Both the position numbers and the translations under genes were made by a program. The notes under the pieces are model-generated. The model was not told the DNA's origin. It worked only from the letters and a program-made list of their open reading frames with translations, and did no database searches. Below are positions 30,041 to 32,998 of a stretch of 64,000 bases of DNA, piece by piece; within the stretch, counting starts at the first letter, position 1; every line of letters begins with the position of its first letter. This stretch comes from Caviibacter abscessus (lineage in GTDB: Bacteria; Fusobacteriota; Fusobacteriia; Fusobacteriales; Leptotrichiaceae): assembly GCF_001517835.1 (NCBI RefSeq), contig NZ_LOQG01000027.1, positions 62,001 to 126,000 of the forward strand. Reading direction: 5' to 3'.

Positions 30041-32998
30041 ATGAAGGGATACAAATTTAAAATAGCTTGTCTATTTTTTTTATTCACAATTTCTTTTGCA
30101 CAGGAGAAAAAAGATGAAGATAAAGATTCGCAAAAACCTTTAAGTGATATAAATAAAATAGTAACAGTTTACTTTAAAGACGATAAAGATCAAAAAGAAA
30201 AAGATAAAAAAGAGATAGAAGAAAAGTTAAAAAAAGCAAAACATAATAATGAAAAAACAAATAAATCGCAAGGAAATAATAACGTCCAAAATGAACATAA
30301 AGATAAATTAAGATTAAAAAGTTTTAATGAACAAGGACAACCAGTCACCAATGTAATATCATATGGAAACAATGGATTTTCAGCAGGTGGAGGATTTGTA
30401 TTAGTAGTTGATGCGGACGACAATACAAAAGAAAATAAAGAAGAAGAGGACACATTGTTAGGTAATATAGCAATAAAATTAATTAGTGAGCACAATAAGC
30501 ATTATGAAGAAAATGCAGATTTAAAAAACGGTGAAAATTATGATTATCAAAAAGTGAAAAAGTATAACAATGATGGTACAATAGAAATGGATAGTACTGA
30601 AACTAATAAAGATTATTACTTTGCATCTAATATAAAACTAGTAAGATCAATAGCTATAGGATTTAGAAGTAGGGCATATAAGTCAGGAATAGCAATAGGA
30701 GATTATTCATTTGCGAAAAAAGGTGTAAGTATGGCTATAGGACATTACGCAGTAGCAAAAGAAAATTCGGCAATGGCTATAGGAGTGGGAGCATTAGCAA
30801 GTGGAGAAAAATCTTTAGCAATGATGAGGCAATCAGCTGCTCTTGGAAAATACTCTATATCTATAGGAACCGTATCTGCTGCAACAAAAGAAAAGTCAAT
30901 AGCATTAGGTCATGGTGCGGTTACAAAACATGAAAATGCTATTTCATTAGGTGCAGATTCAGAGGATAAAGAATTTGTTGCAAAGCCATCATTAACATAC
31001 AATGGTATTAACTATAAAGATTTTAAAGGTTCAGGTAATAATACTAATGTATTAAAGAAAAAAGCAGAAGACAATAATTCAAAAAATAGATCAGTTTTAA
31101 GTATAGGTAAAAAAGATTATGAAAGACAATTGGTTAATTTAGCACCTGGAGAGATAAGTGAAACAAGTACGGATGCAATAAATGGTTCGCAAATTTATTC
31201 AATATTAAAAAATGGTGGCTTTCATTTAAAAACAACAAATGTAGAAACTTCTAACACATCTAAAGATGGTTTTGTCAGATTTGGTGATAGTGTAAATGTT
31301 GAAGCAGGTTCCAATTTAAAATTGAAATTTGAAACTACAAATAATGGAAATGATCCTAAAAAATATAAATTAACTTATTCTTTAGATACTAAATTAAGTG
31401 GCATTGAAAGTATATCGGGACCTAAAAATGTTATTATTACATTTAAAGAAGATAGTTTGTCGTTAAATAATAAGAAGATCACAGATTTAGCAGATGGTGT
31501 AAATGATAAAGATGCTGTAAATAAGTCGCAATTAGATAAAATAGAGAAAGAATTAAAAGCTCTTATTGAAAGACCTATAACTATAAAAGCAGACAAAGGT
31601 ACAGAATTAAAAGTTAAACTTGGTGATACAGTTACATTAGCAGGAGATAATAATATAATTTCAACTGAAACAAAAGAAGCTAAAAATGTTAGTTCATTAA
31701 AACATAGTTCAAAAACATTAAAAGGTGCGACAAATAGTTTTGCAGGAAGCGTTACTATTTCAGGAAATGAAGAAAAAATTAAAAAAATAGCGATAGATTC
31801 TGTAAAAGTTGTACAAGATGGGAATAATATAACAGTTACTCCTAAAAAAGAGAAAAATGATACTGAAATAACATATAAAGTTAAATTAAATGATAGTTTA
31901 AGAGATATGCAAAAAATATCATTTAAAGATTCAAAAGTTGAACTATCTACAACAGGGCTTGATTCAGGGAATAATCCGCTTATAAATGTTAAAAGTGAGC
32001 TTGCTTTAAATAGTGGTAAAACAGAACCGGTTGATGTAATTGCTAATTTACTTGGAACTGAAAGTAATGATAAATTATCATCAGCTGCAACAGTTGGGGA
32101 TATAAAGACTGTGGCATTAGCAGGTTTAACATTTAAAGATGATAAAAATCAAACAGTACATAGAAAATTAAGTGAAACTTTATCTATACTAGGTGATGGA
32201 AATATTAATACTGAAGTTAATGGAAATTATGGTATAAAAATAAGTTTAGATAAGAGAATAACTGACAAAATAGAAGAGAATGCAAGAAATATAGTAAAAG
32301 CAACAGGTGGAATAGCGACATCAATGGCAATGGCAAATATTCCACAAGTAGGAGATAATAAGTTATTTAGTATAGGAGCAGGGGCGGCTTATTACAATAA
32401 ACAAGGTGGATTTGCACTTGGAATAAGTGGAACAGAAACATCAAATACTTTTATATATAAATTAAGTGCAGGAATAGATACACAAAAGGGATTTGCAGTA
32501 GCAGCAGGATTTAATATTAATTTTATAAACAAAAAAAGTATAAGTAGTCCTTCAACAACAACTAAGACTGTGTATGTAAATGACCCGAAACTTCAAAATG
32601 AACTTAAAGCAATGAAAGAAAAAATAGCTGAATTAGAAAGAAAAGTAAATCAAAATACATCAAGTTTTAAGGAAAAATTATACATAATAGATCAGTTTAT
32701 AAACGATAAATATATACCTACTAAAATGCAAATTGGTAAATTAAAAGCTATAGTTCAGGAAATAAATGAAAAATATTCAGACAGAATAATAGATATAACA
32801 GGACATACAGATATAAATGCAAATGAAAGATATAATTTGGCTTTAGGTCTTAAAAGAGCAAATAAAGTTTCAGAATTATTAGTAAATTTAGGACTTAAGA
32901 ATATACAAAATATAAGGAAAATATCAAGTTTTGGATATAATAATCAAGTAAACAAAGGATTTTCATCAAATAGAAGAGTAGAAATAACAGTAAAATAA
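30041..32998 (+). CDS. YadA-type trimeric autotransporter adhesin with C-terminal OmpA-like domain
   Basis: Surface adhesin of about 985 residues. The ATG at 30041 is preferred: it follows GGGAGAG and gives a clean signal peptide (MKGYKFKIACLFFLFTISFA). A highly charged stretch follows, then YadA-like head repeats (about 200-305: SIAIG, MAIG, SISIG and IALG heptad-type units). Next come two neck/stalk motifs (STDAINGSQIYSI, KDAVNKSQLDKI), a beta-rich stalk, and the membrane-anchor domain (about 746-828: ATGGIATSMAMANIP through GFAVAAGFNINF). Normally the protein would end there. Instead a coiled coil (about 850-870) and an OmpA-like peptidoglycan-binding domain (about 880-985) follow, with ITGHTD, RYNLALGLKRANKVSELL and SSNRRVEI. 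Single gene with its own promoter. Confidence 0.9.
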   Translation: MKGYKFKIACLFFLFTISFAQEKKDEDKDSQKPLSDINKIVTVYFKDDKDQKEKDKKEIEEKLKKAKHNNEKTNKSQGNNNVQNEHKDKLRLKSFNEQGQPVTNVISYGNNGFSAGGGFVLVVDADDNTKENKEEEDTLLGNIAIKLISEHNKHYEENADLKNGENYDYQKVKKYNNDGTIEMDSTETNKDYYFASNIKLVRSIAIGFRSRAYKSGIAIGDYSFAKKGVSMAIGHYAVAKENSAMAIGVGALASGEKSLAMMRQSAALGKYSISIGTVSAATKEKSIALGHGAVTKHENAISLGADSEDKEFVAKPSLTYNGINYKDFKGSGNNTNVLKKKAEDNNSKNRSVLSIGKKDYERQLVNLAPGEISETSTDAINGSQIYSILKNGGFHLKTTNVETSNTSKDGFVRFGDSVNVEAGSNLKLKFETTNNGNDPKKYKLTYSLDTKLSGIESISGPKNVIITFKEDSLSLNNKKITDLADGVNDKDAVNKSQLDKIEKELKALIERPITIKADKGTELKVKLGDTVTLAGDNNIISTETKEAKNVSSLKHSSKTLKGATNSFAGSVTISGNEEKIKKIAIDSVKVVQDGNNITVTPKKEKNDTEITYKVKLNDSLRDMQKISFKDSKVELSTTGLDSGNNPLINVKSELALNSGKTEPVDVIANLLGTESNDKLSSAATVGDIKTVALAGLTFKDDKNQTVHRKLSETLSILGDGNINTEVNGNYGIKISLDKRITDKIEENARNIVKATGGIATSMAMANIPQVGDNKLFSIGAGAAYYNKQGGFALGISGTETSNTFIYKLSAGIDTQKGFAVAAGFNINFINKKSISSPSTTTKTVYVNDPKLQNELKAMKEKIAELERKVNQNTSSFKEKLYIIDQFINDKYIPTKMQIGKLKAIVQEINEKYSDRIIDITGHTDINANERYNLALGLKRANKVSELLVNLGLKNIQNIRKISSFGYNNQVNKGFSSNRRVEITVK

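Follow-up and report, generated by a model that had tools for sequence, protein, structure and literature searches.

A trimeric autotransporter adhesin of Caviibacter abscessus that continues past its membrane anchor into an OmpA-type domain

The adhesin gene and its genomic surroundings

The window analysed here, a stretch of 64,000 nucleotides of Caviibacter abscessus, carries a gene for a large trimeric autotransporter adhesin (30041..32998, + strand). The host genome comprises 1.22 Mb on 40 contigs and belongs to the family Leptotrichiaceae (f1 in our survey). The open reading frame (30023-32998, + strand) is uninterrupted and comprises 991 aa. Its true start is probably the ATG at 30041, 18 bases into the frame, because the first ATG is overlapped by the putative ribosome site GGGAG (30025-30029), whose spacing suits the second one, at which a typical signal peptide begins (MKGYKFKIACLFFLFTISFAQ, judged by eye). 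The surroundings are ordinary: the adhesin gene is preceded by a lipoate ligase-like gene and followed by four clustered tRNA genes (Pro, Gly, His, and Leu at 33181-33515). An 89-aa reading frame on the opposite strand (33163-33432 of the window) lies antisense to this cluster and was dismissed as a gene.

Domain architecture

The protein is a type Vc trimeric autotransporter of the YadA family that runs on into an OmpA-type domain. One chain contains, in this order, the domains YadA_head, YadA_stalk, YadA_anchor, and OmpA, each of them above its curated Pfam cut-off, as the sequence-only reading of this DNA had proposed for the last two. The surface passenger is represented by the segment 30881..31567 (+), which is delimited by the best Pfam stretches of the head (aa 287-313; 6e-10) and the stalk (aa 485-515; 1e-15), and the full passenger extends beyond both ends. 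The YadA_anchor (32342..32524, +; aa 774-834) scored 31.2 bits (cut-off 22.7; E 2.3e-7) and consists of four beta strands, the last of which ends with GFNINF at aa 834.

The chain continues for another 157 residues (aa 835-991), in good agreement with the previous estimate of about 155. It begins with a linker and a coiled coil (32525..32713, +; aa 835-897), which share 18-39% identity with the corresponding regions of five paralogues. The coiled coil between barrel and OmpA-like domain, likewise expected from the earlier reading, spans about aa 855-876; its heptad core (aa 857-875) was read from the sequence as L857-L861-M864-I868-L871-V875 with 4-3-4-3-4 spacing, and the structural model places a helix there (model positions 108-132). 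The remainder is a predicted OmpA-like peptidoglycan-binding domain (32714..32995, +; about aa 898-991), for which the Pfam match to PF00691 (aa 903-979) is modest, with 36.2 bits against a cut-off of 27.2 (E 8e-9). In type Vc anchors, the chain is periplasmic beyond the last strand, and the same topology would therefore place this C-terminal tail there.

Evidence for an OmpA-type fold and ligand site

A profile built from 17 tails matched the solved domains of Pal, YiaD, OmpA, and OprF at its positions 137-238 (E down to 8e-16). At positions 5-81, it matched the crystal structures of the Hia membrane domain (2gr8, 2gr7, and 3emo) and stopped one residue before the Hia C-termini. An AlphaFold model computed for the last 244 residues, a monomer based on an alignment of three sequences and of moderate confidence (mean pLDDT 66, pTM 0.43), predicts a helix, four strands, a second helix, and an OmpA-type fold, with pLDDT values of 82-91 for the bulk of the OmpA core and below 50 in the linker. 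Foldseek searches with this model retrieved Hia (3emo, 6.9e-7; also 2gr8), the AtaA membrane domain with TpgA (9vnj, 2.7e-5), and the OmpA domain of Acinetobacter baumannii with the wall pentapeptide (3td5, 1.7e-6), the Hia crystals fitting one half of the model and the A. baumannii domain the other half. The model for TpgA itself (NCBIfam NF047726) matched the tail at 27.7 bits, far below its equivalog cut-off of 350; the tail is part of the adhesin chain and not a separate protein, and its identification as TpgA proper was ruled out.

Both motifs that had been recognized by the first reading are present, TGHTD at aa 926-930 and NRRVEI at aa 983-988, but their assignment to the conserved Asp and Arg of OmpA-like domains proved to be half right. 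The Asp is indeed D930 of TGHTD (32810-32812, +), whereas the ligand Arg is R945 (32855-32857, +), located 15 residues further on in GLKRAN. Both residues are invariant in 17/17 tails and aligned with the Asp and Arg of solved OmpA and Pal domains that contact diaminopimelate, a role played by D271 and R286 in A. baumannii OmpA. The NRR of NRRVEI, with R984-R985 at 32972-32977 (+), is a second, separate conserved motif of the OmpA family. Among the divergent paralogues of the main type, the near-identical pair being left out, dN of the OmpA domain was about 0.11-0.22 and dS about 0.5-1.6 (0.47-1.63), which is consistent with purifying selection, with the reservation that dS estimates close to 1 or higher cannot be relied on.

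Distribution

All YadA anchors of the host genome (6/6) continue in frame into an OmpA domain, and these adhesins carry six of its nine OmpA domains; the other three reside on OmpA-porin-like proteins. For other genomes, fused anchors were counted by overlaying anchor and OmpA matches. In genus g4, 9 of 12 anchors are fused in Oceanivirga miroungae (G012; plus one interrupted) and 6/8 in G003. The counts for the Streptobacillus-like genus g6 are 10/24 (G014), 4/15 (G005), 2/15 (G018, plus one interrupted), and 2/9 (G022). Genus g5 lacks fusions among its 20 and 15 anchors (G004 and G013), G010 has a single, unfused anchor, and G001 has none. The interrupted copy of O. miroungae (L043; G012:C1:440800-442500, 219-1005) encodes anchor and OmpA tail in two overlapping frames, and a similar interruption on G018:C101 is caused by a stop. 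In the proposed comparison with other Fusobacteriota adhesins, OmpA tails are present in the host, g4, and g6, whereas no fusion of a trimeric autotransporter with an OmpA domain was found in g5 or in 30 other Fusobacteriales genomes. A 406-aa frame in G021 aside, the long frames with an OmpA domain in these 30 genomes encode only type Va autotransporters and two other proteins, one flavoprotein-like and the other a membrane protein. At two loci (L125, G037:C12:25800-29500; L126, G041:C1:2940200-2945000), in two genomes of family f4 within the same order, a type Va barrel (PF03797) precedes an OmpA domain (PF00691) at the C-terminus, in one case within a frame of 3945 residues, i.e., the same addition in another class of autotransporters. 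Searches with the whole protein in genome contigs and for near-identical sequences in phages gave no match, and among plasmids the matches were confined to the anchor part and came from Enterobacterales.

Origin and exchange of the tail

The view that YadA-type proteins normally end at the last strand of the barrel, from which the first reading started, is valid for Proteobacteria but not for Leptotrichiaceae; in this family, coiled coils often follow the barrel, and OmpA tails have already been published for Streptobacillus. Nearly all relatives that lack the OmpA domain retain a post-barrel tail, mostly of 38-70 residues and coiled-coil-like by eye. The simplest history would be the addition of an OmpA domain onto a pre-existing coiled coil. 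Sequence comparison of the paralogues provides evidence that the tail module has been exchanged between them, because the anchors of L038 and L039 are 97% identical while their OmpA domains share 40% identity, and the OmpA domains of L037 and L039 are 98% identical. In a first tree, the tails of L053 and L054 grouped with OmpA porins (81/95, not starred), but this grouping vanished once long branches were removed, and the tails of all adhesins then formed one group (85/99; main set 100/100). The trees give no support for repeated acquisition of the OmpA domain and can be reconciled with one origin of the adhesin-type domain.

Proposed function and alternative explanations

We consider a type Vc trimeric adhesin with a built-in wall anchor to be the best description of this protein, with a probability of roughly 85%. 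Three chains would jointly form a 12-strand outer-membrane barrel with the passenger exposed outside. Beyond its last strand, each chain would enter the periplasm and continue as a coiled coil, which probably holds the three tails to one another and covers some of the distance to the wall. The OmpA-type domain at each tail end should bind the wall peptide non-covalently via D930 and R945, which would allow up to three wall contacts per fibre. A pull on the fibre would then be passed to the peptidoglycan rather than to the lipid bilayer, and the tailed adhesins would hold the outer membrane to the wall. The likely benefit is resistance to pulling on the fibre together with outer-membrane tethering. 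The main benefit may also lie elsewhere than in wall binding, since simulations of AtaA-TpgA suggest that the anchor gains strength from a periplasmic partner even when it is not coupled to the wall (PMC13082670).

A technical origin of the architecture, an assembly or frameshift artefact that fused an adhesin to an adjacent OmpA gene, has only the unusual domain order in its favor and a negligible probability; it is refuted by the recurrence of this architecture in six paralogues, spread over four contigs and without stops, and in seven genomes of three genera, near-complete assemblies included. The alternatives of biological interest concern the main role of the tail. It is conceivable, but on balance unlikely, that the tail chiefly tethers the outer membrane in Pal's stead, i.e., that the adhesins serve as a mechanical membrane-wall link rather than as anchored fibres. 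The share of the genome's OmpA domains that sits on these adhesins fits this explanation, as does the envelope inventory: no TolB_N match was found in the host genome, which is also without the high-scoring small Pal-type OmpA proteins of other Fusobacteriales (Leptotrichia-like genomes) and otherwise has OmpA domains only on the OmpA-porin-like proteins. Membrane stabilization has moreover been raised as a possibility by Bechon et al. (PMC7549365). However, the three porin-like proteins could do the tethering themselves, and the genomes of g5 have a single OmpA domain and yet no OmpA-tailed adhesins, so the tail is no prerequisite for the loss. In the light of the missing TolB_N and small Pal-type OmpA proteins, the OmpA-tailed adhesins may nevertheless supply much of the membrane-wall linkage of the host. 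That they provide the principal connection of the outer membrane to the wall in a reduced-genome lineage without TolB or Pal-type lipoprotein is a speculative extension to which we assign a low probability, but if it were true, the same fibres would carry both adhesion and envelope integrity.

Slightly less probable than the tethering role, but ahead of this extension, is a tail that chiefly aids assembly by holding nascent chains close to both wall and assembly machinery, thereby promoting trimer formation and surface display. Without TpgA, Acinetobacter Tol 5 displays less AtaA on its surface (review PMC8151025), and a coil directly after the barrel, which is kept in the relatives without an OmpA domain, suits the holding of three chains. 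Such a role of the coil leaves the conservation of the wall-ligand residues D930 and R945 unexplained.

Relation to known systems and significance

The architecture is already published for Streptobacillus, and the present case is a further example in another genus. In S. moniliformis, eight trimeric autotransporters end in OmpA domains and an attachment to peptidoglycan has been suggested (Bechon et al. 2020, PMC7549365). These proteins of the same family also combine a YadA_anchor with PF00691 at the extreme C-terminus, but the eight genes exist beside others with a coiled coil only, whereas 6/6 are OmpA-tailed in C. abscessus. The SLH- or coiled-coil-tailed trimeric autotransporters of Veillonella and other Negativicutes likewise place a periplasmic wall-binding module after the YadA anchor, which is SLH there and an OmpA domain here (PMC7549365). 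AtaA-TpgA of Acinetobacter sp. Tol 5 ties the membrane domain of a trimeric adhesin to peptidoglycan by a periplasmic binding protein, yet with two separate operon-encoded proteins in place of one fused chain. OmpA, OprF, and Pal share the wall-binding fold and the ligand residues, and OmpA and OprF also position the domain after a membrane barrel, but they are monomeric 8-strand barrels or a lipoprotein and not trimeric fibres. In YeeJ, the wall-binding LysM domain is presumably located at the N-terminal side. This peptidoglycan-binding adhesin is also of the autotransporter class but represents an inverse autotransporter (type Ve) and not type Vc (PMC5595812). The current study adds a wider distribution of the OmpA tails, their genome-wide fixation, evidence for an exchange of tails between paralogues, and their co-occurrence with the absence of TolB.

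Trimeric adhesins bear strong pulling forces, and the transfer of these forces to the wall is under study with AtaA-TpgA. A natural one-chain version, with six paralogues in one genome and representatives in several related genera, is a simple test system in which the tail can be removed or exchanged while the fibre remains unchanged. Wall tethering has been added to autotransporters in several lineages, with OmpA domains in the adhesins described here, SLH domains in Veillonella, and OmpA domains on type Va autotransporters in Fusobacteriaceae.
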